NCBI GenBank assembly: GCA_025617375.2
Contig: JAMYGW020000006.1
Span: 1,865,001 to 1,929,000 of the forward strand
Direction: 5' to 3'
Source: Acarospora socialis
Taxonomy: Eukaryota; Ascomycota; Lecanoromycetes; Acarosporales; Acarosporaceae
Length of the DNA: 64,000 nucleotides
Part shown: positions 25,464 through 61,223 of the stretch, piece by piece
How the letters are laid out: every line of letters begins with the position of its first letter
Numbering within the stretch: the stretch's first letter is position 1
The notes under the pieces: model-generated
Databases searched by the model: none
What the model saw: only the letters and a program-made list of their open reading frames with translations
Told to the model about the DNA's origin: nothing
Position numbers and translations under genes: made by a program

Positions 25464-25814
25464 TGTAACATTCTAACCTGGGATTCCCTGAGTATGTAGA
25501 ACTAAGAGTTTGTGCTTGTTGATATAATGACTGGTCTGAAACAGTTCTGAACTTTAACTCTTAGATGGTTACTTAAGTTGAACATGATTGTTTTTATAAG
25601 GAAAATGATTATACTATATAGTGTGCTCACTTGTTGACCTCACTGTCAAGCTCATTGAGGCAGCTCACTCATGCAATTCATCAAGTCTGCTCATCAAGCT
25701 CATCATTGAGCATGTCAAGATGTCACATGACTGCTGTCTAAACATTCTCTGAATGTACACTCTCTGTGTACATGCATCAGTTCACTTTAAGTTCATTCTG
25801 ACTTGATCATAACA
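25464..25814 (-). repeat. LTR of the younger gypsy-type copy (left)
   Basis: 351 bp with TG...CA ends, TGTAACATTC to GATCATAACA. It pairs with 31331-31681. Confidence 0.9.
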
Positions 25815-28800
25815 CTATTCTTTTCTTCTCAGACACTAGTTCTCTAGAACCTATATAAGTGAGAGTATTCACATCATTTGTCATCAGCAACAATGCTTTC
25901 TAAAAATTTCAATCATTTAAGAATCACAAAGAAAATTCAGATTGATGGTGTGTCTGTCTTGTTTTCTTGTGACTATTGTGCTCATTGCAACATTGACTGT
26001 TTCATAATGAAATCTTGACTGAAATGTGATAAGTGTACTTGCTGTGATCATTCATGTGTCAATGTGTTGTGAAAGTCTCTTAATAGAACTCATCTTTTGC
26101 TCTGAAAGAAAATAAGTAAAGCAAACAGCAAATTTAGCAGTCAAGCATGCTGAGCTTGCTGCACTTTCTTCAAAAGTCATACATCTTCAGAAAACATTGA
26201 ATCAGATGAATCATCATGTTTCACAGAAGACTGACTGTCTTGCTGTCAAACTTGATAGTGATAATGATGAAACTGAAAATGAAGATTCTCAAACAATGTC
26301 ACAACTTGTTGACTTGATGTCATCATTCTTCTGAGCTAATATTGACTTTTTTTCTTAAAATATTGAAGTGTTCTTGTGCAGTTCTTGAGATTCTCTTTGG
26401 ATTCTCAGATATTTTCTGAGATATTGTAATCTTTTCATTTTATGAGATAGTGAACTTTCTCACTAATCATTCTTCTTTCTAGAATGTTCTCAACTTCATA
26501 TTCTTTGTTGAATTTGACAGATGTTTTGATGATTTGAAGTGATATGAACTGGTTGCAGTGCTGTAGCATGAATGCATGAAATACTGAGTGTATTCTCATT
26601 TTCTTGAGTAAGTCTAGCTCATAGCTTAACTCTTTGATGTTTCATATGATTCTGAATGATTCTATGCTCTTGTTTTCTAGCTTCTTGCTTCTTTTCTTTG
26701 TCTGTATGTTGTTCATTCTTAGATATATCTTTTCTTCTTCTTCAAATGATTTTGTCTCTGTTGCTCATTTCATCTGTTGTCTGATTCATTCTGTTAGATC
26801 TTGATGCAGTTTTTTCATCTGTGTGATGTTCAAAATCACTTTTTGACTTTGTGATCTGTGTTCTTTGAAATCTCATCATATCTTTGAGTTATAGTCATAG
26901 TTCACATAGAAAGATGTCTCTCTTGTGATTTCATTCTTTGCATTGTTGTATGCAAATTGTGCTGTTGACAACAGTCATACTCAGTTGTCTTGACTTTTGT
27001 TGACATAGTGTCTCAAGTATGTTTCTACTGTCTAATTCATTCATTTGCTTTGTTTGTCTATCTGTGAGTGATATGTCATTGACATCTTATGCTTTATTTT
27101 GAGTTCTGCTGTGAGTGTTTTTCAAAACTTGCTTGTAAACAGCTTGTCTCTGTTGATGATAAGCTCTCTTGATAGTTCATGATTGTTAATCAATTCTCTC
27201 AGTATTGTGTATGTCAATATTGGTGCTGTTGTGATTTTCTTGAATGAAATGAACATTGTATATTTGGTCAATCTATTCACTATAATCAATATACTGTTGA
27301 ATTTCACCTTTCATGCTGAATCTTTTGACAGTGATAGTTTTATAATGAAGTTCATGATAACTGACTTTCACAGTGCACTCAGTGCATCTAATCATGTTAC
27401 TTCATCATATCTTTTATCTTGATTGATCTTGTTCTTTTGACATGAATTGCACACAGCAATCATCTTGATGATTCAATTTCTAAGATTGTCAACATTATGT
27501 CTTCTTCACACTAAATCTTTTGTGCATTTAACTTCTAGATGTTCTTTGATTCTGCTGTGATGACACATCTTAATAAGTTCTTTGTTCATCAAGAGAGCTT
27601 GTTCTATCTTGTACATTGCTGCTAAGTTCTTCATGAGAATTTTGTTGTTATCTTTGCTCAGAATTTCAGCATGTATCATCTGTACATCTTCATGATCAGA
27701 TTGTCTGCTCAAGATATCTGCTTCATCATTCTCATTATTCTTCTTGTAATGAATCTGAAATTCATAGTCTGTCAACTGCTTCACTCAATGAATCTGTCAT
27801 CAATTGAGTTGCTTTGTTGTCACAAAGTTTCTCAGATTCTTATGATTCATATAGATCTGAATTGACTTGCTTGTTTCTGCAAGATAAGATCTTCAGTCTT
27901 GTAGTGCTTTCACTATCACAAGAAGTTCTTTGTCATGAATCTCATATTTTTTCTTGAGTTCTGATAACTTTCTAAATTGATATGCTATGAATTTCTGCTG
28001 TTTCTCTTCAATCTAATATAGATATGTTTTTACTGTGAAATCTGAAGCATCAGTTTTCAGTGTTTTCTCACATGCTGAATTGAGTATTCTTAGGTGTGCT
28101 GTTCTGCTAAGACTTTTCTTTAATGCATGAAACACATTCTCTTGTTCTTTGTTCCAATGTTATTTCTTGTTTTTGCATGTCAAACATGTTAGTGATTCTG
28201 CAATTCTTGCATAGTTTGATACAAACTCTTAATAATAGTTTGTCAACTTTAGAAAGATCTGTACTTTCTTGATTCATTTTGATGTTAATCAGTTTCTGAC
28301 TGCTTCTGTCTTTTTTGAATTCTTCTTAATTTGTTTAGATTGAATCACATAGTCTAGAAACTTGACTTTCTTGATCTCAAATCTGCTTTTTGATTTTTTT
28401 ATGTACAAAGCTCTCTCATTGAGTCTTGCTAATATCTTTCACATATGTTCACAGTGCTTCTCAAGGTCTTCTGAATATATCAGAATGTTGTTGAGGTATG
28501 TGATCACAAAATCATTGAGATATTCTCTCAATATGTCATTGATCAATCTTTGAAAGATGACTGAGACATTCTTCAGCTCAAATAACATAACAGTATACTC
28601 ATAATGTTCATATCTTGTTCAGAATGCTGTTTTTCATTCTTTATCTTCTTTCATTCTGACTCAATAATAGATGTTCTTGAGATCTAAGCTCATGAATCAC
28701 TTAGTCTTGTCTAATCAGTCTTGCAACTCTTCTATCAGTGATAGAGAATAACTGTCTTGATGAGTTATCTCATTGAGTTGTCTGTAATCAACACATAGTT

Positions 28801-31330
28801 GTTTTCTGTCATTCTTTTTTAATACAAACAGAATCAAGTATTCTGCTGATGACTTTGATGATTTGATGAATTCTCTCTTGAAATTCTTGTCAAGATAAGT
28901 TCTAACTTTCTTGAGTTGATTTTTGCTCATTGAGTATAATGATATTCACTTAGATTGCTTCTCATTCAATAGTGATATCTCATGATTTCATGACTTATAC
29001 TTCAGTAAGCTCATTTCTGATTGTTCAGAAATCTCATATGTGTCTTTAACTGTGTATATCTCTTTTATAATTCAATCAATTTTCTGATTCTTTCTGCACA
29101 ATCAGGACATCTCTAGTACTGTGTCATATTTAATTAATCTTATAACATTGAATGTTATCTCTTGTGAATTTTCAAGAATTGAGACTTTCACACAGATTTT
29201 CTCATTGATTCTTTCAATGACTTCATTTATCATTTGTATGTTGAATGAACAGTGCACTCACTGTGTCACTAATTCTAACATATTAACTATTTGTTGACTC
29301 ATAATGTTACTGTCTGCTTCAGAATCTATTAATGTGTTGATTTGATGTTCATTGATCATAATTTTGATTCATATTCAATAATCATTGTCTTGTCTTTGAG
29401 ACACTGCTAGCTTCTTATTCTCTAGTCTTGTTGAGAAAGCTCTTCATTTTTTGACTTGCTTGATCATTCAGCTCATCTTCAAAGCTCTTGAAATCATCTG
29501 AGTTTTTTTCTGATCATAAGACTCACATATTTTAGACTGTGCTGCTCAATGTATCTTTTCAGGTGTAGTTGAGATTTATACTGATCATACTTTATCTGCA
29601 ACTGACTCTCAAAGACTCTTACTCTTTGCAGAAATTCAAGTGATATATATTCTCTGCTGAAAATTCATCTGTCTTTATTCTGTGTGATATATTCTTCAGG
29701 TAAGTGTATCTCAATCTTGTGACTTTTTGTTCTTCAAACAAGAGATTTTGACAGTACTGCATCATCACTGCTGAGACATTCATCTTTAACAGCTGTCATC
29801 AGCTTCTCTAGCTGATCATATGTCTTTTTTTCTTTCACACTCTTGTGTTGCACTTTCTGTTTCTGAACTTGTATCTCTTGTTTAAGCTCTTGCTTCTCAA
29901 ACTGAAGCTTTTTTTTTTTTCATGCTTGTCATTGGTTCTCAAGATGCTGGTATGCTGTCTTCAGTCTCATATTGACTTTTCATTTGTTGATCTCTTTCTG
30001 ATTCACATTCAAATTCAGTGCTTGTCAGATATTATCACTGTAGTCTTCTTCTATCTGAGTTTCTCAAGTATTGATCTCTTCAATCTCAGTATCAAGGGCA
30101 TTTTTCTTGATAAGAATAGTTAATTCTTTCTTGTAGATTGATTGACTCATTGTGTTGTATTCATTCTTCATGTCTTTGTGTGATTTCTGTGAGTATCATT
30201 TGACTTCATCTTTTGCACTCATATATGCTCAGCACATATCATCATAACAGACTGTTCAACTCAGAACATTGTGCACTACACTTGGTTTCTTCATCTTCAT
30301 TTTGATCATTACTGCTGCAATATTCTTTCTTTTCATTCAAGATCTGTTGCACTCTCAAGCAAGATGTTCAGATTTTTCACAGTTGTAATACATTCACATT
30401 TTGTTCTGCAGTATCATCTGAGACTTAGTGAATCATTCTGTCTGATGTTCAAACTTTACTTATTTAGTTTTTTATGACTTCTGATGATGCTTCTTGATTA
30501 TATTGAGATTCATAGAGTTTGTTTCTCTATATCTTATTGATGAAACATATTGCTTCATTCACAGTCAGAAGCTTTCTTCTTGACCTTCTATCATAGATGG
30601 CATTCAATATTCTTTTTGTTTCATCTGTCATTTTCATTGACAACTGTCAATATTGATACTCAGATCAATCATTTTCTGAAGATTGTCTGATCATTCTGCT
30701 CAAACTATCTTGTCTTTGATGAACTTTCTCAATTCACAATAGTACTGATAAATGAGTGCTTCATCATTTCATCTGATAAGTGTTGCTAATCACTGAAACT
30801 CTGTGATGTATACTGTCACTGATTCATTCTGTCACAAGATATGAACTTGTCTCTTTGCTGCTCTCTCTTTGTTGATCACTTTGAAGACTTTCTTTAGTTC
30901 TTTCTTAAATCATGCATAGTCATTGAACATAGACTTCATGTCTGCATTGCATTCTTTGTACCTCTTTTCTAGAAACTCATGCAGTTTAAGATTAACTCAA
31001 TTGAAAGCTGCATCTGCAAGATAGGTTGTTGCAAACAATGTTTTTTCTTGATTGATTTGAAACTTCATTTGATTGAATTCAATATACAGATCAAGCTTAG
31101 TCACAAAGACTCACAGCTTCTCTTATTCTTCATCAAAGATATTGAGTATCTGAATCTTTGATGCATTCACAGATAGTTGTATTATCTGAACTGACATTGC
31201 TGATTGTGTCATCATTCTATCTGAAGTAGATGATAGAGATGAGTTTGCTTGAGTTTGTCTCAAGAATAAGATTGAGATGTTCTTCTGTGTGTCAGACATC
31301 ATACTTGTTATATCATAAGAATGTTCAAAG

Positions 31331-31681
31331 TGTAATGTTCTAACCTGGAATTTCTCAGATATGTAAAACTAAGAGTTTGTGCTTGTTGATATAATGACTG
31401 GTCTGAAATGATTCTGAACTTTAACTCTTAGATGGTTACTTAAGTTGAACATGATTGTTTTCATAAGAAAAATGATTCTACTATATAGTGTGTTCACTTG
31501 CTGGTTTCACTGTCAAGCTCATCAAGGCAGCTCACTCATGCAACTCATTGAGTCTGCTCATCAAGCTCATCATTGAGCATGTCAAGATGTCACATGACTG
31601 CTGTCTAAACATTCTCTGAATGTACATTTTCTGTGTGCATGCATCAGTTCACTCTAAGCTCATTCTGACTTGATCATAACA
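31331..31681 (-). repeat. LTR of the younger gypsy-type copy (right)
   Basis: 351 bp with TG...CA ends, TGTAATGTTC to GATCATAACA. It is followed by the AATCT duplication. Confidence 0.9.
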
Positions 31682-34600
31682 AATCTTATATCTTTTCTTA
31701 AATTCTAATAGTTTTCTAAATTGATATACTATGAGTTTCTGTTGTCTCTCTTTAATCTGATATAGATATATTTTTACTGTAGAGTTTAAAATGTCAGTCT
31801 TTAGTATCTTTTTGCATGCTGAATTGAGTATTTTTAAATGCACTATTTCACTAAGATTTTTCTTTGATGTATGAAATGCATTTTCTTGATTTCTTTTTCA
31901 ATGTCATTCTTCACTTTTGTGTGTCAAACACATTAGCAGTTCTGCAATCTTTGTGTATTTGAGTACAAATTTTCAATAATAATTTATTAATTCTAGAAAG
32001 ACTTGTACTTTCTTGATTCTTTTTAATGTTGATCAGTTTCTGACTACTTTTATCTTTTTTAAATTCTTCTTGATCTGTTCAGATTAAATTACATAGTTTA
32101 AAAACTTAATTTTCTTGATCTTGAATCTGCATTTTGACTTTTTCACATACAAAACTTTCTCATTAAGTCTTATTAATATCTTGCACACATGCTCTTGATG
32201 CTTCTCAAGATTCTCTGAGTATATTAGAATATTGTTAAGATATGTGATCACAAAATCATTGAGATATTCTCTCAATGTATCATTGATCAATCTTTAAAAA
32301 ATAATAAAAGTATTCTTCAACTTAAACAGCATGACAGTGTATTTGTAATGTCTGTATCTTGTTTAAAATGTTATTTTTCATTCTTTGTCTTCTTTCATTC
32401 TAACTCAGTAATAGATCTCTTTGAGATTTAAGCTCATGAATCATTTTGTTTTGTTTAATTGATTTTGTAACTCTTTTATCAATGATAGTGAATAACTGTC
32501 TCATTGTGTTATCTTGTTGAATTGTCTGTAATTGATACATAATCATTTCTTGTCTTTTTTTTAGACACAAACAGAATTAAGTATTCTGTTGATGATTTTG
32601 ATGATTTTATGAATTCTTTCTTGAGATTCTCATCAAGATAAGTTCTAACTTTCTTGAGTTGATTTTTGCTCATTGAGTATAATGATATTCACTTAAATTG
32701 CTTCTTGTTCAATAGCAGTATTTTATAATTTCATAATTTATACTTTAATAAATTCATTTCTGATTGTTCAGAAATCTTGTATGTGTCTTTGACTGTGTAT
32801 ATTTCTTTTATAATTCAGTCAATCTTTGAGTTTCTTCTGTGTAATCAAGACATTTCTAGTACTGCATTGTATTTCATTGACTCTATAACATTAAACATTA
32901 TCTCTTGTGAATTTTCAAGAATTGAGACTTTCACACAGATTTTCTCTTTTATTCTTTTCATGACTTCATTAATCATTTGTATGTTGAATGAATAGTACAC
33001 TCATTATATCACTAATTTCAACATCTTAACAGTTCTGCAGTTCATAACATTACTGTTTACTTCAGAATTCATCAATGTGTTAATTTAATATTCATTGATC
33101 TTGATCTGAATTCATACTTAATAATCATTATTGCTTCTTTGAAATGCTGCTAGTCTCTTGTTCTTTAGTCTTGTTGAGAAAGTTCTTTATTTTTTGACTC
33201 ACTTAATTATTCAGCTCATCTTCAAAGTTCTTGAAATTATTTGAATTTTCTTTTGATCATAAAATTTGCATATTTTAAACTGTACTGCTCAATGTATCTT
33301 TCTGAGTGTAATTAGAGTTTATACTAATTGTACTTCATCTGTAACTGACTCTTAAAGACTTTTACTTTTTACAGAAATTTAAATAGTATATATTCTTCAC
33401 TGAAGATTCATCTGTCTTTATTTTGTGTGATATATTTTTTGAATAAGTATATTTCAATTTTGTGACTCTTTATTTTTCACACAAGAAATCTAGACAATAT
33501 CACATCATTATTGTTAAAATATTCATCTTTAACAACTATCATCAGCTTCTTTAGCTGATCATATGTTTTTTGTTTTTTCACATTCTTGTGTTGTGCTTTT
33601 CATTTTTTAACTTGTATTTCTTGTTTAAGCTTTCACTTCTCAAACTGAAGCTTTTCTTCTCTCAATGCTTTACATTGATTCTCAAAGTACTGATATGTCT
33701 TCTTCAGTTTTATATTGATTTTTTATTTGTCAATTTCTTTCTGATTCACATCTGAATTCAGTGTTTGTTAAATGTTATCACTGTAGTTTTTTTCTATCTG
33801 AGTTTCTTGAGTATTAACTTTTTCAATCTCAGTCTCAAGATTTTCTTTCTTAATAAAAGTAACTAATTCTTTCTTATAGATTGATCTGTTGCATTTATCT
33901 TTATTTTTTCTTTTAAATTTCTGTGAATATTATCTGACTTCATCTTTAACACTCATGTGTACTCAACACATATCATCATAACAGACTGTTCAGCTCAGAG
34001 CATTATGTATTATGTTTGATTTCTTTGCTTTTGTTTTGATCATTATTACTGCAATATCTTTTCTATTTATTCAAGATCTGTTGTACTTTCAGACAAGATG
34101 TCTGAGTTTTCTGCAGTTATAATACATTTATGTCTTGTTTTGCAGTGTTATCTGAAACTTATTGAATCACTCTGTTCAGTATTTAAACTTTGTTTATCTA
34201 GTTTTTCATAATTTTTAACAGTACTTCTTAATCATATTGAGATTCATAGAATCTGTTCTTCTATGTTGTATCAGTAAAGTATATCTCTTTATTTAGAATT
34301 TGAAGTTTTCTTTTTGATCTTTTATTATAAATAACATTTAATATTTCTTGTGCTTTATCTGATGCTTTTATTGATGACTATCAATGTTGATACTTAAATT
34401 AATCATCTTTTAAAGATTGTCTGATTGTTCTGTTTAAGCTATTTTGTTTTTAATAAACTTTTTCAACTCACAATAGTACTGATAAATAAGTGCTTCATTA
34501 TTTCATCTGATAAGTATTGCTAATCATTGAAACTCTGTGACATATACTGTCACTAATTCATTTTGACACAAAATGTAAATCTGTTTCTTTACTGCTCTTT

Positions 34601-35067
34601 TTTCATTGATTATTTTAAAGACTTTCTTCAGTTTCTTCTTGAACTGATTATAGTTGTTGAACATGAATTTCATATTGTTGTTGCACTTCTCATATCTTTT
34701 CTCTAGAAACTCATGCAGTTTAAGATTGACTCAATTGAAGACTACATTTACTAAATAGATTATTACAAACAATATCTTCTCTTAATTGATCTGAAACTTT
34801 AACTGATTGAATTCAATGTATAGATTGAGTTTAGTCACAAAGATTTGCAGCTTTTCTCATTCTTCATTAAAAATATTCAGTATCTGTATCTTAAATGCAC
34901 TCAAAGATAGTTGCACAGTGTGAATCAGTATTGCTGCTGATTGTATCATCATTTTATCTGAAGTAGATGATAAAAATGAGTTCACTTAAATTTATTTCAA
35001 GAACAAGATTGAGACATTCTTCTGAGTGTCAAACATCATACTTTTTATATTTTAAGAATGTTCAAAG

Positions 35068-35418
35068 TGTAATGTTTTCACAAAAGATTTCTCTCATATA
35101 AGAACTAAAAATTTATGCTTATAAATATAAAAGCTAATCTGAAATGATTCTGATCTTTAATTCTTAGATTGTTATTTAAGTTAAACATAATTCATTTCAT
35201 AAGAAAAATGACTGTAACTATATACTGATTTGCTCACTGATCTTATTGTTGAGTCTGTTGAGTTGACTCACTTATGTAATCTGTCAAGTTTACTTATCAA
35301 GCTCATCATTAAGCATGTCAAGATATCACATAACTTCTGTCTTGACAGACAATCTGTTAAATATTCTTTCTGTATATAAGTTAATTCATATTTTATTTCT
35401 TTAAGTATGACTGTAACA
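35068..35418 (-). repeat. LTR of the older gypsy-type copy (right)
   Basis: 351 bp starting TGTAATGTTT in plus orientation and ending GTAACA. It is followed by CAGCA. Confidence 0.87.
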
Positions 35419-35423
35419 CAGCA

Positions 35424-37330
35424 ACATGAAGATTTTGTGAAGAAATATAAGAATGACTTTGAAGAGTTTATATAACTAACAATGAAGAAATATAACAAGA
35501 ACAAACATTCAGAGACACATTTTTGAAGTATATATATATAAATGAAATTAATAGTCACTGATAATGACTACAACTATAACTATGAGTTGTAGATAGATTT
35601 AAAAGATAGAAATATATAAATTTAATACTATTTAAGACTTCAGAAACTCTGCAACTGTTGTTAACTGCATTAATGAGTTAACAGCATCACTTCTTTTTCT
35701 TATAATTCTTATATTTCTTATAGTTCTTCTCTTTTTATTTCACTTTTTAACTTTCTTCTTTAGCTGTTTTTCTAGATCTAAAGAGATGTTCAAGTTTCTT
35801 CAGTCTTGAATCTCTGTTTTTTTTATCTGTTTCACATTATACAGCTGATTTTACAGCTGTTTGTATGCATTCTTCAGCAACATTGAGTACTTTGATACTT
35901 ACTTCTTAAATCACTCTATATATTGATATAGAAACTTCATGAACTCTGTGTCATCATTACTAATAAAGTTGCTTTTTTTTTCACATAAAACAGATTATTG
36001 TGAAGACAAGTAATGCAGAAACTGTGAAGCAGACTTTAAAGAAGAATTCAGAGATAGCTGAGACAAGAATGAATGAGAAAAATGCATTAAATAATACAAA
36101 GAATATTATAAAAAAGATGAAAAAGACAGAGCAACATATGAATGCTGATAAAGTTGTGAATATGATAATGAAGACAGATAGAGTGAAGAAAATATATATG
36201 ATAATAAGTATTGTCAGAAACTCTGCATGAACATTGATGACATTGATGACATTAACAACATTGATGATGTCTATTTCATGTAAACATGAACAGATGCAAA
36301 AAATAAAAATAATATAAAAAATAAAACAAACTGTAAAGCAGACTCAGAGATCAGAGAAGAGAGCTAATTAAGTATATAAAGTATTTAAAGAAAAGAACTT
36401 TCAATGATGACATTATCATTATTAATGATTTTATTTCAGACAGTGAAATGATTAGAATTCAGAACATAATGTTTTTCTTTTAACATTAAGTATTTTTCAT
36501 TCTTATTTTTGTACTTCACATTTTCACAATGTCATCAATGCATCAGCTGTCTCACATAATTGTTCAGTTTTAATTTCAGCTTTTTTTATTTTTTCATGAC
36601 TGCTCAATGCTTGTCTGTAGCTGTTCTTTAAGTAAAATTAGTATAAAAGTTCTACAAAAAGCAATTGATTTTTTTTTTTTTGAGAGAACTTCTTCTTCTT
36701 TCAAAAACTCTGACTCATTGTCATCTGTAAAGAAATCTTAAATAGATTTTGAAGCTGTTCTCTGTGCAAATTTGATGTTTATAGATATCTAAATACTCTT
36801 TTTCTTGTTTTTGTGTTAAATCAGAAGTATAATTTTCAAATTGATTTATCTCTTAACATTCTTCAGATTTAAGATCATGATATTCTGTTTTTTAATCTCA
36901 CTGAATAATAGTTCTGCTCTGATCTGCTGTCATTGTACTCAATATTTCTTTGATTAAATTTTTTTCTTCAATCTGATCTGCTCATTTGTCAGAAACATTG
37001 AATAGTTAAAATTAATAAGATTAATCATCTTGATCTTGAAATACTGAATTATTTTATTCAGAAAAACAGTTCAATGAATGAGAAACATAACTGAGATCTT
37101 AGATGAAATCTTCTTTGTTAAATTGACAGTGTTGATGTTCTCAAATTCATTAACATCAATGTTCTCAACATTCTTAAGTAATAAAGACAAAAAAGAATGT
37201 CTGAGATCTTTCAGAATCAATTTTGATGAAGTTTTTGTCTTAAAATTCTTCTTTTTACTCTTCAGCATTGAGACTGTTGTTATAGGACTCAGGAGGTGTC
37301 AATTGATCTTGTGAGTGCATGATTTTATGG
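35424..37330. other. Right interior of the outer DNA transposon, hypermutated
   Basis: This is the continuation of the TIR transposon beyond the LTR insertion. It is AT-rich and without CpG. Short Lys-rich frames such as 36000-36230 exist, but no transposase motif can be recognised. The last 50 or so bases before the right TIR regain GG dinucleotides. Confidence 0.5.
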
Positions 37331-47959: not shown

Positions 47960-50129
47960 ATGCCTTCCGAAAAATTGCTCAACGTGTTCAAAACAATCAG
48001 AAGTCGCAGCGTCGAGAAGAGGAAGGAACCAACAGCATCTGAAAATACACGTGTTCCGATAGACACATCATACAATGGCCTGAAGACCATTCATGAGGGG
48101 CCCAATCCTACGATTGAGTAAGGTAATTCCTAGATGGAAAAGATAGGGAATAACGAATCTGCAGTGTCGTTGCTATACATGGCCTCAACGGACACCGAGA
48201 CAAGACTTGGACTGCTGCTAATGATGTCCTCTGGCTGCGAGATCTGTTGCCACAGAGACTTCCCAGGGCTCGGATAATGGCCTGGGGCTATGATGCTAGT
48301 ACTCACGGCAGGAATCCAATATCGGCCCAATATCTTCATGATCACGCCGATACGCTGGTTTCGGACCTCTGTCTGGAGAGGGCGTTGACATTGGTAGACA
48401 TGAAGTCGGACTCCATGAACAAGTAGATTGCTAACACAAATATAGACCCAAAGGCGGCCTATAATCTTTCTTGCTCATAGTCTTGGGGGCCTTGTGCTGA
48501 AGTCAGTATGTACTGACGCTCTTCTGGATCACCTGGCATTGCCTCATGAAACAAAACCCAATAGGCTCTCATCCACTCTGCTGCTGCCAGGGCCGGTGCT
48601 CAAGAAGACCATCACTCCATATATCTATCCACATATGGCATTATTTTTGCAGGCACACCGCATCAAGGAGGCGAGGGAGTGACTTGGGGTGTCCGCCTAG
48701 TCACCATCGCTTCGATGTTTGTCAACACAAACAACAATATGCTTCAACATCTTCAGCGAGATTCTGAGGAAGTTCAAAGACTAATGCGAGACTTCGCACC
48801 TATATCCAACGATTTTCGAACGAAGTTTGTCTATGAGACACTCGAAACGACTTTACCCACGGGCACTTCTATTATGGTAAGCTTGAACATGAACTCTCAC
48901 ATGTGTCTCACTGATTGAACTAGGTTGTGCCAAAGGCTTCTGCTGTTGTGCCAGGGCTAGCTGATGTGGAGCCAATTGCACTTCATAAAGACCATTCTAA
49001 TCTTGTAAAATTTGTGGGCTCTGATGACGATGGATACCAGACACTGTCAGGGCATATGCATCTAATGGCAGAAAGTGCAGGCCCTCAGATCAGAGCCCGA
49101 TGGGCTCGCTATTCAGCTGTGAGCGGTAAGACTTCCTGGGAGTTTAACTTGCCCCATGACATACGGTTGAAATTTAAACTAAAGGTTCAGTATATGATAG
49201 GACCTTCTCAGTTTACACAATCATCGCAAGTGGCCACACCCGGTCTTCCAGCCAATCCATCTTTAAGTGTGGCAACCACCCCGTCATCCAGTGAGGCGAG
49301 ACCCAGTGTCAACATGGAGCACTTACCCAGTACCGGCCGCAAAATCTCCGGATGGACAATACTCCATGCTACTGTCAACAACAAAAGTAGCGAAGGCGTC
49401 AAAGCCATCTTAAGCGTGGGCAGCGATCCCAACTGCAAGACAAACGAAGAGGCTTGGACCCCACTATGGGTGGCAGCCTTCCATGGGCTCTTAGGTATAA
49501 CACATCTAATCCTTGATGCCGGAGCCAAAGTGAATGCAACAACCCGTAATGCCTGTACCGCGCTGAAAGAAGCTTCCGAAATGGGAGCTACGGAGGTTGT
49601 TCGATTGCTGATTGAGAATGGAGCCAATGTGGACCTTGCATCCCATGACTTTCAGGTTACCCCCTTGATTGTTGCTGCCGGGAAAAATCACGTAGAAGTT
49701 GTAAGACTTCTTCTAGCTGCTGGCGCAAATCCTCGTGCGCAGCAGTGCGGCGGTTGGTCCGCCCTGCACTATGCCCTCATGAACAAGAACAAGGATATGA
49801 CTAATTTGATACTTGCGCATTCTCCTGATGTAAATGCTTCTACTAGACCGGGTACCCGGCCGCTACATTTGGCTGCTTGGGCTGGATACACCGACACTTG
49901 CACAAGGCTTCTCGACCTCGAAGCGGAGATGGAGGCGAAGGAAAGTGGTGGCCTGACAGCCCTGAGAGTTTCTGTACAGGAAGGGCAACTCGACACAGTC
50001 AAGATGTTGGTTGAAAGAGGCGCAGGAACGGATGTTGTGGGAGCAGACGGACATTCCTTGATGGAGGTCGCACTCATGTCGGGACACGTAAATGTATATC
50101 GATATTTAGAGGAGCAACCGACAAGATAA
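47960..50129 (+). CDS. SesB-like alpha/beta hydrolase fused to ankyrin repeats, no NACHT
   Basis: Exons are 47960-48117, 48165-48393, 48446-48505, 48565-48876 and 48924-50129, giving 654 residues with phases consistent. Residues about 50-290 form a lipase-like alpha/beta-hydrolase domain. The oxyanion-side motif is VVAIHGLNGHRDKTW (from residue 53) and the nucleophile elbow is AHSLGG (Ser about 141). GIIFAGTPHQGG (174-185) and a candidate catalytic His in LHKDHSNLVKF follow. This matches the SesB-type domain found at the N-terminus of fungal STAND/NLR proteins. A Ser/Pro-rich linker leads to about seven ankyrin repeats (about 395-650), for example GWTILHATVNN, TPLIVAAGKNHVEVVRLLLA and RPLHLAAWAGYTDTC. 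A NACHT or NB-ARC domain (Walker A, Walker B) is absent where NLRs would have it. Function is inferred only: lipase/esterase effector with a recognition domain. Confidence 0.87.
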
Positions 50130-51587
50130 AGGAGGGATATATTGGAAAAAATTTCCTATTCTTGTTGGTTTCCGGTTAGGATTAGGGAGTTATAATTGGC
50201 TATACACAACACTACTATAGTATCTACGTTCCAGACAACCTACTCAGGTACTTCATCAAGCCCACCATTCTGAATACTTGTTCACTTTGTGATCGATGCA
50301 GTTTCTGTCAGCAGGAGCTCATCGTGTAACGTTCTCGCTAAGGATATTTAGGATTTGACAGTTCTCGGTGTCAATCTACATCTACTTGGTTCCTGTGTTC
50401 TATAGCTGTATCAAATTGAAAGCTGCATCTATTTTGTTTATGTATCGGTCCGGTCATCATGCCGAGAGCTTCTCTCCAATGCCTTTGCGGCAAGCTATGA
50501 CAGTCAATCCACCAGCTCACTGTACACTCGGACTCCACCTGAAATTCGCAACAGCATCTTCAGGCTCGCATTGACCGAATATGACGACATTAATCATCCA
50601 TATGAACAGAGTGCCATCTACTGTAGACCAGGTTACCGCTTCCGCCATCGCATTGATATCGACCTCCTCCGTACTTGTCGCCGTATCTACCTTGAAGCTC
50701 ATTTGCTACCCGTTGCTACTAATTAGCACGTCTTCTGGTGGTACGGAGGCCCACCAGGAAAGAAATACGCTGCTGATCCCCATGGTTATTTCGAGACGAT
50801 GACGTCTCAGCAACGAGATGCTGTAGACTGCGTTGTGCGTCCATCCTATCTGTCATGTGAGTTGGGGACTGGTAGTTGAGGCTCTGTTTGTGCGCCGCGT
50901 GTGGCTTTGTATATAGATGGTGCCACAAGACGGTAGAGTTCTACGTCCTCGTCTCTGCCGCTCTCGCTTCGCGTTCCAGCGTGAAGGTGTCGAGTCTCTC
51001 TCTCCTCCGCGTCCGCGTCCGCGGCGCAGAATTGGGGATGGGCCTTTGGACTGCACAATACTCATACAGAAGGTTGCATCGTCGCGTACTATACCATACT
51101 ATGACTCTGACGGCAATGGATTTGTCTACCAGTAGGCGAGTCTCGCACGGATGACGAGTGGCAGAGGGGTCAGGGAGCGAGATAGGAGGGCTACCTTCTT
51201 GGTGGACCGAACAGACGATGACCAGTCCATTGGTTAGAAGAGCCTCCCTGTCCGACAGATTGAGCTTTTGCCGCCTACTTTTGTCGAGCTCACAAGGCCT
51301 TGACAGCTTTATGTCTCCAAGAGAGAGATGGATGGGGGAAAGCATAGATGGAACATGATGCAATATGGTAGCGGGTGAGATTGGGCAACATGTTAGGTGA
51401 TGTGCCACGTGGATTCCAGTGTTTCTGTTGTATTCCAATGACTGTTGTTGTTTCAGTTATCAGTGCCCTTGATAAGTGCAATGCACTTTGGCATAATTTG
51501 TGATTGATAAAGCTTGAATAGAATAGAGGCAATCTCCAGTCTGTTTCAAATGCACTACTCAATTCCAGTCAAGCCAGAAACAACACT
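50130..51587. other. Convergent intergenic region between two ankyrin genes
   Basis: About 1.46 kb between the stops of the hydrolase-ankyrin and kinase-ankyrin genes. Small frames such as 50876-51154 and 50941-51438 have no recognisable motif. No repeat is evident. Confidence 0.5.
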
Positions 51588-54410
51588 TCACCCAGACTGA
51601 AACAGCTTCTGAAAGGCTTCTTGTACCCGCCTGATTCCATGAGGACTATGCTCACCGGACGTTGAACGTCCCGTGGCTGGCAGGTTCCGAAGGTGCTGCT
51701 TTAAAAATCGAAACATCTTTTTGTGGCCCAAGACATCTGCTAGGTCTAATGGTGTTAACCTGTCCTTGTTGCGGGCTTCCCAATCACGAGATGTGAAATT
51801 GGTAATTTGCTGCTTGAGAAAGTCAAGCTGTCCAGAAAAAACGATTGCATGCAGCACAGTATCCCCATATGCTCCCACAGCATGTAGTGATGCCCCTTTC
51901 CGTTGCAGTGCTTCGAAGCATTTCGTGTTGCCGCACTTTGCTGCATGTACGATTGGAATTTCTCCCCATACTGTCTTCTGCTCCAGGCATTCATGACTAC
52001 CTTCAGCTTCAAGAAGTAGATTAAGAAGTTCTGCATCACCATGATAGAAGACTGCAGCCCAAATAGGTGTCTCCACTGGAGAAAAAGACCAAGAATGTGA
52101 CGGATACACTTGTGCACCGTGTTCTAGCAAGATCTTGGCTGCTTCCTTATGGCCGTGTCTAGCTGCTTCATAAAGCGGGGTATCGTAGTTACTCTCAGCT
52201 AGATGGTTGATGTCGGGTGAGTGTTTCAAAACTTGCTTTATAATTTCAACAGAGCCTCCTGCAGCTGCTGCATGCAAGACAGTCTTCTGCTCGTTGTCCT
52301 CCCATGCAATTTGTTCTTTCGGTTTGGTTTGCAACAGACAGTCGACTACAGCGACATTGGCAGATTCGGCAGCAAAAAATAGAGCTAAACGACTTGTGTC
52401 TGTAGCAACCATCAAGGGACTTATTCCCTGATCAAGGTGATTCTTGACTGTTAGAATGTCACCATTCTTTGCAGCTTCTGTAAGCTCCTTGATATTTTCT
52501 TCAAGCTTGCAGAGAAAGCCATCATTGCTTCTTTGCAGAATATCCCACGGTTTCTCTTTGTCCTTATCATGTACTGTGAGAGACCAACCGAGCTCCCAAA
52601 GCCGAATTATTCTCACTCTATCTTCTTTTCGAGCCGCTCGATGAAGTGGAGTTTGAGAATCAAACGGTATTTCCAATCTGGAATTGTTCGCACTTGGATA
52701 ATACACTGGGGTGAATTTCGATTTTGGGGGCTTTTCGCAAAGGGAAGCCTTCTCCAGCACTGGAATTTGATCGTCATCAGGGCTCAGGAGCTCATGAAGA
52801 TCCATCTCAGCTTCCCACATGTACATTCGGTCCTTAGGATACCGGGCCATCATATGAAGTGCAACGTCCAGAAGCCCGTCAAGCTTCTGGTCGCTGTTGT
52901 AGTACTTCAGTTGCTCTACCCAATTAGTGACCGCAACGAGATTGTTGTGGAAGGAAGCATCTGCCCCATCATGGACAGACTCTGGGCTCTGGTGTTCTTG
53001 GATCATGTTTGCCCTCCTTCTTTCCTTGAACTTGGAGACTTTCCCAGACCAGTCATGGACGATTAATGTTCCAAGTTCAATGATGATACACCCCATCGCC
53101 CAGACGTCGAATGCGCGTCCATGCTTGAACTCGGAACGAGTTCCGTCACTATCCCAGTACTCCGGAGGTTGATATTCGTACGTTCCTAGCTCTGAGATGC
53201 CTTCGGTTGCAGATCCTTCAAGCAAGGGGCGGAGACGTGAACGGCCGAGGTCAGCAATTTGAAACTCGCCCCCAACAACAAGGATGTTTTTAGGTTTCAA
53301 GTCATAATGTGCAGCGATCACTCCCTTGAACTCTCGATGCAGAAAAGAGAGAGCGGATACGAGTCTGTAGGTAGAACGATAAATATACTCCCGCCGTTTA
53401 TTGCTTGGGAAATTTACAAGATTTGCCGGAACAGAAGGGCCGGTCATCCATTGTGCCAGGTCCATTTCAGCCCAGGGAAATACGAGATGTAGCGTCCGAA
53501 GAGCTTCTCCAGACTCAACTGAGTCCAGATAGTATGAAGCCAGCAAGCGAATGATGTTCGGATGTCTCCTTTGTTGAAGATTTTCAACTTCCCGGAAAAG
53601 TTTCCTCCATTCTCCTCTGCTGCGGTCATTCTTTGCGCGGATCCGTTTCTCGGCGACAACAGTCTAGACCGTGTAAGCAATGTTTTACTCTTCAAAGAGG
53701 GCACACTGGACCTTGTCTGATGTTGTAAGATGACCAGCCATGACCGTCACCCGGTATACCACGCCATAAGACCCGTACTTATCGAGATCTTCCCTTCTGA
53801 CGTATGGTAACACGGTGTCCTTTGGCACTTCTTGATGAGGACCAGCGAGTAATAACCCAACATAACTTCGGTATTTTATGAGCTTCTTCCTCTGTGGCTT
53901 ATCCACTTTAGCAAGCTCACAAAGTCGATCGAAACTTGGTTCATCAAATAGCATGGAGTCACGAAGGCCACAGAAGCAGAACTTCCATGCAAGCGACTCC
54001 AACCCTGCTAAGATTAAAACAGTAAAGAAAAGGCAAGCAGTATTACAAATCCAATCGACGATTTGATGAACTTCAGGACGATCTTCTTCTTTTTGCCACA
54101 AGGGGTGGTCTGTGGCCCACCTCAGAAGGCGGTCCGGGGTCAAAATGCGCTTTACAGCTTCAATACAGATAAAGGGTTCTCCCTTATAATTCTTGAACTT
54201 GGAGTGCTCTTTTATGAGAAGCTCATGCAGCGAGTCATCAGGACGAGTCATTGAAAGATTGGTGGCCGCTATGTAGCGCTCCAGGCCTGTTGCAGAGGGC
54301 TCTGTGCCGGCAGTGGAGGTGTCAGTGCCGATTGAGGAAGGCTCTGTCTCAGTAGTAGAGGGCTCTGTAGTTTCTATGGAAGGGTTCATGCTCGCTGTAG
54401 ATGGCTTCAC
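51588..54410 (-). CDS. Protein kinase-ankyrin repeat fusion protein
   Basis: Exons on the minus strand are 54410-53712 and 53663-51588 with a 48-nt intron (53664-53711), giving 924 residues. The N-terminus is a Ser/Thr/Glu/Pro-rich repeat of the type TEPS/TSTAGTEPS (about residues 1-45), then about 160 helical residues. The kinase domain starts near residue 205 with YGSYGVVYRV. The splice then creates VVAEKRI, which holds the likely ATP-binding Lys. The catalytic loop is HYDLKPKN (Asp about 354), the metal motif DLG (about 371), and GTYEYQPPEYW stands for the APE region. So it looks active, with HRD changed to HYD and DFG to DLG. Ankyrin repeats occupy about residues 580-885 (TPLHRAARKEDRVRII, TVLHAAAAGGSVEIIKQVL, TPLYEAARHGHKEAAKILLE). 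No NACHT is seen. A transposon end lies 115 bp upstream of the start codon. Confidence 0.87.
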
Positions 54411-54525
54411 ATATGCTGACTGGTCTTTGGACTTCAGAGTGTAATTGATTGTAAGAACTACATGCGCGTGTATTGGCAGTGGAAGAACAATTCCGCCGCC
54501 GGAATAAGTAAGCTCCTTGTTGATT
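54411..54525. other. Short upstream region of the kinase-ankyrin gene ending in a transposon target site
   Basis: Only 115 bp separate the kinase-ankyrin start codon from the transposon. The last nine bases, TTGTTGATT (54517-54525), are the left copy of its target duplication. Confidence 0.8.
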
Positions 54526-54601
54526 CGGCAAATGTCTCCGGTCTACCCTAATCTCTTCATATCGCATTTATATCTACCCTTTTTACTAATATCTACCCTC
54601 A
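54526..54601 (+). repeat. Left TIR of the 3.5-kb DNA transposon
   Basis: 76 bp beginning CGGCAAATGTCTCCGGTCTA, with three TCTACCCT motifs. It matches the reverse complement of 57970-58045 with a single difference. Confidence 0.92.
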
Positions 54602-57381
54602 CTACTGACTTTAACACCTCAGTTAGGCATCAACTTTAGTCGTGAACATATCTATAGGTAAGATATAACAATCTTGATAGTAAGTATTAGACATGAGCTT
54701 CTGTGCAAGTGTAAGGGCATGCTGTAGAGCAAGGTTCAGTGTGTGACAAGCATTGAAGGTGCCACACTGATACTACAGTCATATAGGAACTTAGCAATAA
54801 CTGAGTGTAGATAGTTATAGTGGTCTTTTGGCTCAAGTGAATTGCTTGTGTCGCTAAGCACTCACACTTACAGCAAGCTTAGACATGATCTTAGACATAT
54901 AGTGTATGTCTGAGGGTCTTTTTGGCAGGGCCATGACCAGTTATGTCAGCTAATCACATAACCCCCTAGAACATCCTAACCAAGCAAAAACATTCTTATA
55001 AGGCTCTAATATGCCTGAATCATAGAGCAACAGCTAGAATTAGTTCATAGATCAATTAATTAAGTTATCACATGCACCACATGCAAATTGAAGTATAATA
55101 ATAGTATAATTGTAACTATATACTGCTATCTAGATGTCTTAACAGTCTTAAGAATCTTAACAAAGCTGCTCAAAGACTTCTCTGACTGCTGTCAAAGCAA
55201 CTTTATTTTCTGCATGACTTTAAGAAAAACTCTGTCATCATCATTTTTCTTTTTCAGAACTGTAATTTTGTTGTGCATCTGATCTATTAAATGTTTCTGT
55301 TGACAGTATTATGTTCTTTTGATGTTGCTGTTTTGTCAGCAAATACTGTAGTCAGTATTGAGACTGACAATTGAGAATTCTTCATCAAAACTCTCATATC
55401 ACTTTCATCAGAGCTTCAGAATTGTATAAACATGTCATGATATTCAATGCTGAGACATCTGATTCAACAACAACAATAAAAAAGCAGAAAAAAATAAGAC
55501 AAAGACAACAATAGAGATGAAGATGAAAGTAATGACAATAAAGAAGAGAAAGAAAACTGCAGAAAAAACAGAAAAAATTATCACTGCAAAGACTGTCTGC
55601 AGTATAGAGTCAGTGACTTTAGCACAAGAGACATAGAGAAAAATGCAACTCTTCATTAAGTTTTTCATGTTAATTCTCATAATTTACAGATTCTTGTCAT
55701 TTTGACTGTTTCAGAAGTTCATTTTTTTTGTTACAAATTGCTGTGATGTTGTCAGTTGCTCAACAACAATTGAAAAAACATTGTAAAACTGCATATTCAT
55801 GAACTTCTCTTGTTCATCATTGATCTTGATAACAGTTCAAACAAAAGTCTCATACTTCAGCAGAACAAAAAGAACTTGTTTTCAGACAGAATACTCTGAA
55901 AATAGTTTTTAAAGTAAAACAGAGTTCTGCAAAAAAACTGTTCACAGTTTCTGCAGTAATTACAGAAATCTCTGTTCTGTAAGATTTAACTTTATTTCTT
56001 TATTTATATTAAGAAACTGATTCATTCATTCATTCATGTTCAGAAAGACAAGCAAAAAAAGAAGATCTGAGAAAATAATTTTGACTTGAGACAAATAGTA
56101 AGTGTCTTATTGCTGAAAGTCAGTCATGTTATAAATAAACTTTTGTGACAGCAACATCAGATAAACACTCTGCATCAAATTGTTGTTTCACTGATCTGCT
56201 TAATGAATTTATAAAATTAATTAATATTTAAAAAGCAAAAAACACTTATCTGAGTCTCAGACACTCTCATTAACTTCATTATTTTTGTTTTTGATACATG
56301 TAAAGTGTGAATTTTCTTTTTGATTGACAGTTCAATATTAATGAAGAACTGATTAATTCACTTCAACTAAGTGTTGTAGAACAACTTCTTGATACAGTTT
56401 TTAAGACTGTTCATTAACATTTATATTGTGTATCAGTTCTTTCTTCATTTGAACAAAAAGAAGAACTTATTACTGCAGTATCATTATCAGAAAAAGTAAA
56501 CAGCAAAAACATCAAGAAAACAGATAAAAAAGTTTTTATTCTGCACTGCAACACAATACTTTATTCTTTCATGTTGATTCATCTTTCTGTTGTGAAAGAT
56601 CAGCATAAGAAAGAGACATAAAATAGAGTTTTCTTCATTAAAAATAACAATAAAAAGATTGACAAATTTAATCATTCAATAAAACTCATCATGACACAGA
56701 AAAAAGTGTTCAAACAGAAAGTCAACAAAAGTGCAGAAGCACTGCTCAGAAAATTTTGTTAAATTGAAGATTTAAAGTTTTTCACAAACTCATTGCATCT
56801 TTTTCACAGTATAGTCATCAAGAATAAAGCTCACAACTCTATTCTCAAACACAGTTCTTTTTTTCTTGTTCTTCTGTCTGTGAAGCATGTTGAGTTGTAT
56901 CTTCATTGTAATGTCATATGAGATAATGTTGAAGTTCTGTCTCATCAATATCTGTTTTTTGTAGATATTTATGATGATGAATATTCAATTCTTTATGTAG
57001 TTTCATCTCAGCTTAGTGAATCTACTCTTCTTCTCTTTCTTTCTTTTTGCTGATTTCTTCTTCACATTTTTCTTTATTTTATTTTTTTTCTTTTTCTTCT
57101 TGATCTTGTTCTTTTTTTTTTTTTTTTTTCTTCATCACTCATTGAGTCAGAACAACTTTCTTGAGAAAGAAAAAAATCTTTAATTCACTGATGAAATAAT
57201 CATCACAGAAGTCTTGTTTCTGACAGAACTTCTATGTAAATTGTTAACAACTGCTGTTAAACAGAACACAAAAATCTCATACATGTCAAAGATGTTTCAG
57301 AAGCTGATATGTTCTCATTATATTGTGAAAATGACTGTGAATTCTTGTTGTCAGAACCTTCTGTTGCACAGTGAACAGTGT

Positions 57382-57571
57382 GATGTTGTTGATTATATTG
57401 ATGTTGTTGATTATATTGATGTTGTTGATTATATTGATGTTGTTGATTATATTGATGTTGTTGATTATATTGATGTTGTTGATTATATTGATGTTGTTGA
57501 TTATATTGATGTTGTTGATTATATTGATGTTGTTGATTATATTGATGTTGTTGATTATATTGATGTTGTTG
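57382..57571. repeat. 18-bp tandem repeat array, about 10.5 units
   Basis: The unit GATGTTGTTGATTATATT is repeated without visible variation. Eighteen bases equal six codons, so frames stay open through it on both strands (DVVDYI and NIINNI repeats). It lies within the hypermutated core of the DNA transposon. The 9-bp target duplication TTGTTGATT of the host element occurs once in every unit. Confidence 0.95.
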
Positions 57572-57969
57572 TGAAAATCAACAACAGTCATAGCAACAGC
57601 AGTGAGAACAAGAAACAGAGAAAGAAAGAAAGAAAAAAAGAAGATGTTCAATTGATTCTGAAAACAAGAAGCAATTAGTCTTAGAACATGAATAGAAAGA
57701 GAAATTGAAATTAATCTCATAATTCTTATACTTCTCTACTTCATCTGTCACTTCTCTCTGCAAATCAGAATGTCTAATTATCTCTTTCATGTTCAGAGAT
57801 CTTGAAATACTGTATGTTGTGGGTGGGGTAGATGTGGACATCTCAATTGACAGGGATGGGTGAAAATATCCTTGGTTATTTGAACATGGCCTACTACGTT
57901 GACATATAAGTCTGAAGCACTCATATATGATTAGTGAACCTTGCACCTAAACTTAGGCCTTGAATTCAA

Positions 57970-58045
57970 TGAGGGTAGATATTAGTAAAAAGGGTAGATA
58001 TAAATGCGATATGAAGAGATCAGGGTAGACCGGAGACATTTGCCG
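57970..58045 (-). repeat. Right TIR of the 3.5-kb DNA transposon
   Basis: Reverse complement of the left TIR. It is followed directly by TTGTTGATT. Confidence 0.92.
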
Positions 58046-58054
58046 TTGTTGATT

Positions 58055-59103
58055 TCACTCCCGGATTAACCTACATCTAGGGATAGGAATTCAACTACTT
58101 CCACTTGTATGATGTTGATAGGTTCGCCTTTCTCTGTAGCTGTATTCAATCAGAATGACCCGCTTAACTCTGCCTATGTTGTAGGGGGCGTGTTGAGAAT
58201 TGTGAGATAGACTGATTTATGAAATGACTAAGTGCGTTCATGCTTTCCGTTCTAACACTCCTTGTACAACGATATCCGATCACACCTTTACCCTAACCGC
58301 CGGCTTAAACTTGAACCAAGTCTGGAGACAAATCACCAGTTTTTCAACCGCATGTCGCCGATATCTGCATGATATGTATCTTCATTCGCGAGATCTCTGA
58401 GCTGAAAATGAAGATGAGATTGGGTATCCAGGGAACTCAGATGAATGGAAGCTTACGGCATACCGCTTCCCACTACTCTCGACGCCCTTGACTTCGCCAA
58501 GCCGCCATTTGCCTGCAGAGTCAGAATTTGCCAGTATGCGTGCTTCTGAAGAAGAGGCGCAATGAGAACCTACCACTGCGAAAATAGTATACCCTTTCCC
58601 GTTCCTTATAAGATGTCACGTACTCAGAATCCTGTGGAGGGTCTGGACGATCAGGCATGGCCGCTCTTGAACTAAGGTACGTTTTCGGTACGCTGAGATG
58701 ACGGACAGAGAACTTGCTGAACCGTGAGGAACGGGGCCGGCCGACGAGGCGTTCTTATGTATTACCTTCGGGCAGCATTTATGCAATGTTACGTCACTGC
58801 GCGTTGATAACGGGCGTTTCATTGCGTACTGGTTGCCATATTGCCACCTCACAGCCTTGCCGTCGATATTGTCTATGCCTCCGAAATACTCGGGGCGTAA
58901 TGAGAGCTTCGAATAAGAATTTTTATATCAGAAGCAAAGTGAATTAGAGGTCGATAAGTTACAGCCTCCCAAGACACTAACATATCCCGGAAGGCGGTTT
59001 CCATTCAGAGGAGGTACGGGCTCTTAGAGATTCTTTTGCTTGACTGAACCCCTTTGCATACCGACTGATTGCTCTATTCTGTCGTCGATATCGGGGCTGT
59101 GAG
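58055..59103. other. Intergenic region upstream of the third ankyrin gene
   Basis: About 1 kb of normal base composition after the transposon. It presumably holds the promoter of the gene at 59104. The small frames on both strands (58382-58947) show no recognisable domain. Confidence 0.5.
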
Positions 59104-61223
59104 ATGTCGGATCCTCTTTCCTCGATCGCCTCGGTTATTACTATAGCCGATTGCGCTGCAGGATCAACCAAGTTGCTTTTAGAATTCTTCCGTCGGTTCC
59201 GAGGAGCACCACAGGAGATACGGCAGTGGCTCGAGGTGCTTGAATCATTATCGATCACTTTGAGCAGACTGCAGCAACAAAGCGCCGGCTTAGACCCTGC
59301 ATTTTCCTTTTCACCACACTTTCGCCGGAGGCTGCTAGACTGCCTGACATATCTCAGGACCTGTATTGACGATGTCAGCAAATTCGATAGACGTCTCCAT
59401 CAGACAGGATCGGATGCCAAGCCTGCTTGGGATAGCCAAGCCAAAAGGTCCTGGAAGAGGGTAAAATGGGTTGCAGTTGAGGGCCATAAGATTAGGAAAT
59501 CGGTAGACGTGATTCAATCCTACCACTTTGAGTTTTCGATGGAGCTTCTGATGCAGTTACTGTAAGGCGAGACTTCTTTGGAAGGGTACGTGTAATGCTC
59601 ACAGTCAGTGTAATCAGAAAGACTTGTGGCCCTCCTTCAGCCTCATCAAATCAAACCCTAAGGCGCCATACGGACAGTAATCTGCAGCCAGTAGGGCACT
59701 CAAGAGAGCGAATGGAGTTTCCATCGCGCACTATACAGGGTTTGGCTCTCGAGACGAGTCCACAACCGTCGAGGAACAGTCGTGTCTTGCAAAAAGTGGC
59801 AGCAACCTCAGGACACACACCCGGCTTCCGACACTATGAAAAGAGCGATTCAATCCAGACCTTGGCAATCGGAAGCCTTGGGCCTCAGCAATTTATCAGA
59901 ACGTCATTCATGATATCTTGGAGGCTATGGGCCTGTAACCTCACTCTTCGAGCAGGCCCAGTGATAGCGCCTCGAACGCATCGTGATCAGGAATTCTACC
60001 TTGCCAAATTGCTTGAACGAATAGGATGGGGGTTAATGTTTTCATTCGACTTTTCAAAGACTTATGGCTCTCGGGCTGACCTGGTACTTCGATTTTTCCG
60101 GACTATGGCTGTGAATCAGACGAAAGCCGCACTACACTGGGATTTGGATTTTCCACGAATCGTTCCAGTAGATGCTGAAGCTTTCGCGTTCGCCAGGAGG
60201 GGCACCGTGGCCGGTATCAGAGAGTTGCTGAGGACCGGGTCAGCAAGCGCGAAGGACGTCAATCCATTCGGCACCACACTGTTACACTCAGCATCTAAGG
60301 CAGGTAATCTTGAGCTGGTACGGCTGCTTGTGCGAGGTGGAGCTGATATCAACGCCCAAGATGAAGACGGCGAGACTCCGCTCCACGGAGCAATGGCAAC
60401 AAATGATAATTTGGACATTGCAAGGCATCTATTGGAAAATGGTGCAGATCTATCCAACCAGGCCATTGATGGCAAGACACCTTTACATAATATTTTCAAC
60501 AGCACCATCGGTCAGGTGATGACGATGGAGTATCTAATTGAAGATGCTTTACCAGACTCAGAGGGGATGTCAATCTCACATTTTCTGGCATGGAGCAGTA
60601 AAAGCACATCAACGAATTTTCACAACGGTCGCAAACATGATATGGCCTCCTTATGGTCCGTTGATGTATTTGGAAGAAACTGTCTGCACTTGGCAGCATC
60701 GAGAGGAAATCTGGACGTCCTCTCTTACCTTTTGAAACGGGCCTCGCCATTTGAGATTAACTGGAGGGATCGCCAAGGATCTACTCCTCTCCACTACGCA
60801 GTTCAAAGTAGTCGAGCGACTAAGGCAATGAGACTACTATCGACAAATGGCTGTAAAGTTGGTGCTGTCAATGGGCTCGGCCAGACTGCACTCCATCAGG
60901 CGGCACAGTGGCAGAACCTCGCGGCAGCCAAAGAGCTTGTGGCACTCAGCCCTGAGAAATCCTTGTCATGCCCAGATCGGAATGGGATGTTTCCATCTCA
61001 ACTTGCTTGTCAAGGTAGTGCCCCTGACCTTCATAAATTTCTGAAAGAAAATGAAGGACCCACCCAATTGATCAGGACGTCAGTCAGTAGCAAAGAGAGT
61101 CATTCGAGTCAGGTGAATGAAGGACACACTGGGAAAAAACCATTCTCACTCTTTGCCAACAAAATGCTAACAATCTTGGTGTTGACAATTATCGTGTTCT
61201 TGTTAGGACTTATTGAACTCTGA
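59104..61223 (+). CDS. Fungal STAND N-terminal (Helo-like) domain plus ankyrin repeats with C-terminal membrane tail, no NACHT
   Basis: Exons are 59104-59561 and 59609-61223 with a 47-nt intron, giving 690 residues; the acceptor after CAGTCAG is the one that keeps frame. The start MSDPLSSIASVITIADCAAGSTKLLLEFF followed by GAPQEIRQWLEVLESLSITLSRLQ matches the Helo-like N-terminal domain of fungal STAND proteins. HeLo-type domains are membrane-targeting cell-death effectors. The middle (about 240-330) has the AALHWDLDFPRIVPVDAEAF segment common in fungal ankyrin proteins. Ankyrin repeats run about 330-640 (TTLLHSASKAGNLELVRLLV, CLHLAASRGNLDVLSYLLK, TPLHYAVQSS, TALHQAAQWQNLAAAKELV). The last 20 residues, MLTILVLTIIVFLLGLIEL, form one membrane helix, a tail-anchor-like end. 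No nucleotide-binding domain is present. Confidence 0.86.

Follow-up and report, generated by a model that had tools for sequence, protein, structure and literature searches.

Three ankyrin genes and a TIR transposon

The window, by which we mean the whole 64,000-nucleotide stretch that was analysed, sits on contig C6 of a 31.1-Mb genome (38 contigs) and contains three genes for ankyrin-repeat proteins, here called A, B and C, with a TIR transposon between B and C. A sequence-only reading of this DNA had proposed these three genes, and each could indeed be read at full length by manual splicing. The coordinates of A (47960-50129) and C (59104-61223), both on the plus strand, stood unchanged, whereas B, on the minus strand, had been started at 54410 and begins in our model with a first ATG at 54389. 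A Pfam profile search of the spliced proteins at E-values up to 10 matched ankyrin repeats in all three and found neither NACHT nor NB-ARC in any, in agreement with the proposed lack of a nucleotide-binding switch. Set against the layout of fungal NLRs, A, B and C carry an NLR-type N-terminal domain and C-terminal repeats, and the central NACHT/NB-ARC is missing. That effector-type N-terminal modules are mounted on ankyrin repeats without a NOD was likewise borne out, and the same modules occur on NLR-type proteins. The SesB module is found on NB-ARC/TPR and NACHT/ANK proteins among the database relatives, and PF17111 matches adjoin NPHP3_N matches at four loci of the same genome (at one of which PF17111 falls below the cut-off and a SesB match lies alongside). 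The B-type kinase is joined to NB-ARC and TPR in protein P0238 and precedes a partial match to NPHP3_N in P0136. Elsewhere in the window, positions 22001-37000 form a 15-kb AT-rich block of 26-33% GC from which classical RIP indices are absent. Between A and B, at 50500-50720, lies a remnant that by eye resembles a fungal 'PPEIRN...' gene, presumably of the 2EXR/F-box type.

Gene A (47960..50129, plus strand) encodes a protein of 654 aa with a SesB-like alpha/beta hydrolase domain followed by ankyrin repeats, in five exons (47960-48117, 48165-48393, 48446-48505, 48565-48876 and 48924-50129). All Pfam hydrolase models remained under their cut-offs (Hydrolase_4, 26.9 bits against 27.0); we count A as SesB-like because it is homologous to the SesB regions of NLRs and has the HSLGG and DHxxLVKF motifs. 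A search with its SesB region gave 332 proteins at E<=0.001, headed by P0001 (77%) and P0002 (67%), from Xylographa. Both lack a NOD and have the SesB-ANK architecture themselves, at lengths of 600 and 594 aa; the best named relative is from the lichen fungus Xylographa pallens. Identity to these two proteins is 76-80% in the SesB part and 54-69% in the ankyrin part, and the SesB region is 62% identical to the best NB-ARC-bearing matches (P0003). A P-loop pattern follows the SesB part in 98 of the 120 relatives listed (of 332), many of which carry NB-ARC or NACHT-type domains together with TPR. Another relative, P0090, has WD40 repeats after SesB, and the 25 listed of its 49 families include no NOD. 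In a SesB tree of A and 69 of the 120 listed matches (the closest 55 and those without the P-loop pattern), A was placed among proteins that are mostly NOD-bearing, and the three NOD-less SesB-ANK proteins formed a single clade (SH-aLRT 100). The NOD-less form of A is therefore no recent loss within this genome.

Gene B (51588..54389, minus strand) encodes a protein of 917 aa with an N-terminal helical domain, a protein kinase domain and ankyrin repeats. Its two exons (54389-53712 and 53663-51588) are separated by a hand-modelled 48-nt intron (53711-53664) whose donor, GTCCAG, is unusual and was selected to preserve the reading frame. This intron falls just before the kinase lysine strand, a position that modelled introns also take in the paralogues of B on contigs C2 and C11. 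The kinase assignment is clear (Pkinase, 84.8 bits), with the catalytic motifs VAEK, HYDLKPKN and DLG kept. The structure of the N-terminal domain was predicted with a mean pLDDT of 90, and comparison of this prediction with known folds gave no clear match. The N-terminal region and kinase together have 178 relatives at E<=0.001, and most of the 120 listed are kinase-ANK proteins; the best named ones belong to Psora, Pyrenodesmia, Ramalina and Bacidia. Together with the Xylographa relative of A, these suggest that the genome is that of a Lecanoromycete or a near relative. Three lichen-fungal members of the family (P0127, P0128 and P0167) appear by eye to have an extra, mutually similar C-terminal region beyond the ankyrin repeats.

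Gene C (59104..61223, plus strand) encodes a protein of 690 aa, in which a HeLo-like domain encoded by exon 1 (59104-59561) is followed, in exon 2 (59609-61223), by a middle region, ankyrin repeats and a hydrophobic C-terminal tail. It passes the gathering cut-off of PF17111 (PigL_N; 31.8 bits against 27.2), which the available text of PMC9815663 gives as a HeLo-like family. Searching the genome with C recovered three more C-type genes; all four are above the PF17111 cut-off, and each has its most hydrophobic 19-residue stretch close to the C-terminal end. A search of a large database with the first 370 residues of C returned no homologue at E<=0.001 among 5,579 candidates. A weak single-sequence AlphaFold2 model of exon 1 consists of long helices (mean pLDDT 68), and when it was compared with folds, unrelated helical bundles scored equal to MLKL or better.

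The cluster had been described as transposon-associated, and this association can now be defined as one element of 3,520 bp and 31% GC (54526..58045), bounded by 76-bp TIRs (75/76 identical) and by 9-bp target-site duplications at 54517..54525 and 58046..58054. It thus combines long TIRs with a 9-bp target duplication, and we take the latter to point to a Mutator-like element (MULE). The longest stop-to-stop frame in it, of 164 aa, spans a perfect array of 10.6 copies of an 18-bp unit (window 57381-57571). Related copies lie elsewhere in the genome; a longer relative at C26:4985-8397 is 77-82% identical in pieces, with none of the matches listed falling in the outer TIRs of the window element. 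Removing the element would bring the starts of B and C to 1,194 bp from each other, near the spacing of their counterparts on contig C2 (984 bp). The element inserted later and widened the B-C gap in the window.

Recurrence of the B-C linkage

The genome has three B-type genes, defined by the N-terminal region, kinase and ankyrin repeats, and these lie in the window and on contigs C2 and C11. C-type genes occur at the same three places and on contig C9, so that all three B-type genes of this one 31-Mb genome have a C-type gene within about 6 kb. Within this single genome, then, a gene of executioner type recurs beside one of sensor type. Two of the pairs are head-to-head: on contig C2 the start codons are 984 bp apart, and in the window they are separated by 4.7 kb, of which 3,520 bp are the transposon. 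The pair on contig C11 is on the same strand, about 6 kb apart, with another gene between, represented by minus-strand frames with weak DUF7580 and kinase matches below the cut-off. Beside this copy of C, at C11:365135-368563 (L053), a further kinase frame and then an ankyrin frame were seen on the minus strand. The copy of C on contig C9 faces a different kinase, recovered only as a weak match to the B proteins. At C9:1.52 Mb there is one more B-like kinase, a distant fourth, for which neither an ankyrin match nor a nearby PF17111 match was found. Random placement would produce the linkage with a probability of 0.0067 for a single B gene and of 3e-7 for the three together; both figures serve as a guide only, because the distance was fixed post hoc and the copies share descent.

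Identity among the paralogues is low, at 35-42% for B and 28-40% for C. In a quick tree of the three B genes and 53 hand-picked sequences of the 120 listed matches, each B gene fell with different fungi in a different clade of the lichen-fungal family: the contig C11 gene in a clade of 6 rows (SH-aLRT 100), the contig C2 gene in one of 13 (94) and the window gene in one of 18 (94). Given such divergent paralogues and separate B clades, the linkage either outlasted deep divergence or arose repeatedly. Among ORFs of at least 120 aa in the stretches compared, only B, C and generic kinase or ankyrin matches were common to the three loci, and no SesB match was found near the pairs on contigs C2 and C11.

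The association extends, in part, to other HeLo and HeLo-like genes. The genome contains 23 loci matching PF17111 or PF14479, of which four adjoin NOD matches and 19 are non-NLR. A kinase lies within 6.5 kb of 6 of these 19, against 0.87 expected (binomial 1.5e-4, with a threshold set post hoc, once the distances were known, and with the C genes being paralogues), given at least 105 kinase loci (from 136 rows; 123 of 215 candidates scored). All four genes of the C type are among the six, together with two HeLo genes (2/6 PF14479 loci), and in five the arrangement is head-to-head. No kinase was found within 6.5 kb of the nine further PF17111 loci outside NLRs (of which four fall below the cut-off), of the remaining 4/6 PF14479 loci, or of any of 51 NOD control loci, a subset of the matches listed. 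When the C family is counted once, 3/16 loci are kinase-linked against 0.73 expected (P 0.034). At C2:3184290-3187700 (part of which is L068), one of the HeLo (PF14479) genes stands head-to-head with a kinase match, 0.83 kb from it, and a same-strand ankyrin match follows the kinase; at C6:1675447-1678206, a HeLo gene is head-to-head with a kinase match, with 1.35 kb between the domain matches.

A candidate two-gene module and its alternatives

By analogy with fungal two-gene clusters of pore-former and sensor, B would be a sensor-kinase and C an executioner. We tentatively propose, at somewhat less than an even chance for the whole including its mechanism, that the two form a module of a kinase-ankyrin sensor/activator and a HeLo-like-ankyrin-tail membrane executioner. 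The ankyrin repeats would bind a cue or hold B and C together; upon the cue, the kinase of B would become active, possibly by oligomerising via its N-terminal helical domain, and would phosphorylate C. Phosphorylation would free the HeLo-like bundle, which together with the tail would attack a membrane and kill the compartment. The pair would then be a NOD-free analogue, split over two proteins, of the action of RIPK3 on MLKL. The cue, the phosphorylation and the killing are, like the B-C interaction itself, features we infer by analogy. A more far-reaching version is rather unlikely in our estimate: a NOD-free kinase/four-helix-bundle death module, present in several mostly head-to-head copies in this one genome, in which the kinase-ANK protein directly phosphorylates and so releases the HeLo-like-ANK-tail protein, ankyrin repeats stand in for the amyloid motif as well as the NOD, and the whole is a fungal counterpart of RIPK3-MLKL.

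The linkage could also be ancestral and of no joint function, an old B-C neighbourhood copied to three places whose genes serve separate, ordinary signalling. The closest C copies, those of the window and contig C2 (39.9%), both belong to head-to-head pairs, as block duplication predicts; the excess of kinases beside HeLo genes is modest once the C family is counted once (P 0.034), and the interaction of B with C is itself argued from analogy. However, the copies are divergent and the rest of the neighbourhood is not common to the stretches compared, which makes neutral retention of just B and C less expected, and a kinase is also found facing the C-type gene of contig C9 and facing each of two HeLo genes. 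We therefore hold this account to be possible, though on the unlikely side.

The initial proposal was that the three genes could be a non-self recognition locus. Were they NOD-less receptors in a polymorphic island of this kind, it would explain why three effector-type ankyrin genes, with the effector domains of fungal NLRs, lie in 13 kb. In simulations with uniform placement of 59 loci (56 from 150 listed matches and three known ones added by hand), an ankyrin triple within 13.3 kb arose anywhere in 1.7-1.9% of cases, 59 being the least number of ankyrin loci (at least 59, with 150 of 326 candidates scored). The available part of PMC6652019 gives 156 ankyrin proteins for the lichen fungus Cladonia grayi, and with 156 loci the same simulation gave 27%, so the proximity of A, B and C alone is weak evidence. 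Contig C11 has a second ankyrin triple, but two of the three loci in it had been added by hand. Hypervariable recognition repeats of fungi are near-identical to each other (PMC4986451, in the text available, where >85% is used), whereas the repeats here are mutually divergent: the best 33-residue self-match is 13/33 in A, 9/33 in B and 14/33 in C, and the hypervariable signature is therefore absent from all three (internal identity at most 14/33). The ankyrin region of A, moreover, aligns one-to-one with those of P0001 and P0002, leaving 1 to 3 positions unpaired. Other sources hold proteins related to A that share its NOD-less architecture, and no SesB match was found near the pairs on contigs C2 and C11, so that a single locus of three equal modules is not supported; we regard the recognition island as improbable and do not favour an incompatibility role for A, B and C.

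A similarly low probability attaches to A, B and C being adaptors of full NLRs, in which resident NLRs with the same N-terminal domain supply the switch. SesB and HeLo-like matches adjoin NOD matches in the genome, and a kinase-NB-ARC protein exists elsewhere (P0238), but no NOD match is listed inside the window. Least credible of all, and very improbable, is that the three are decaying ex-NLR genes that lost their NOD: the position of A among mostly NOD-bearing proteins and the unusual donor site of B would suit decay, yet the frames are open, the catalytic motifs are kept, and A has relatives of the same architecture. Among these accounts, we consider it most likely that B and C represent, by analogy, a new kinase/executioner variant of known fungal cell-death gene pairs, and that A is a separate NOD-less SesB-ankyrin gene adjoining the B-C pair.

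Comparison with known systems

If the proposed B-C module is real, a kinase/HeLo-like pair would give fungi an animal-like phosphorylation route, and an enzyme with an ankyrin sensor would work without a nucleotide switch. It would also provide a limited number of gene pairs that can be tested in close relatives of lichen-forming species.

Fungal two-gene clusters of a pore-former and a sensor are treated as functional units in the available portions of PMC10197012 and PMC12881547. In the same texts, >80% of fungal gasdermin genes have a protease gene in their cluster, many of the linked protease products (a large fraction) carry WD40, ANK or TPR, and only a small subset of these sensors are NLRs. 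The B-C pair resembles such clusters in placing a membrane executioner gene beside an enzyme-repeat fusion gene (PMC12881547, PMC10197012). It differs in that the kinase of B replaces the protease, the HeLo-like domain of C replaces gasdermin, ankyrin repeats are on both proteins, and the control of the executioner is putative. In het-S/nwd2 and HELLP/PNT1, too, a HeLo or HeLo-like executioner adjoins its sensor gene (PMC12881547, PMC10197012, as far as the text goes); there the sensors are NLRs that signal through amyloid motifs, whereas C has a NOD-less kinase-ANK gene next to it. The necroptosis-like pathways of fungi described in these reviews, in the sections at hand, run from an NLR to a HeLo protein via amyloid templating (PMC10197012, PMC12881547).

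The combination of a kinase with a putative four-helix-bundle protein recalls RIPK3-MLKL necroptosis (PMC12881547, in part), and HeLo-like domains are described as related to the MLKL bundle (PMC10197012, PMC12881547, likewise in part). Unlike MLKL, C has ankyrin repeats in place of a pseudokinase domain, and its phosphorylation is putative. The three window proteins combine the same kinds of module with repeats as fungal NLRs with SesB-like, HeLo-like and protein-kinase N-termini do (available text of PMC4986451), and differ from these in that the NOD is missing in all three. Head-to-head NLR pairs make up 13/225 two-NLR clusters in Sordariales, according to the part of PMC12258605 available; the likeness lies in the divergent arrangement, although B and C, unlike the members of those pairs, are not NLRs.
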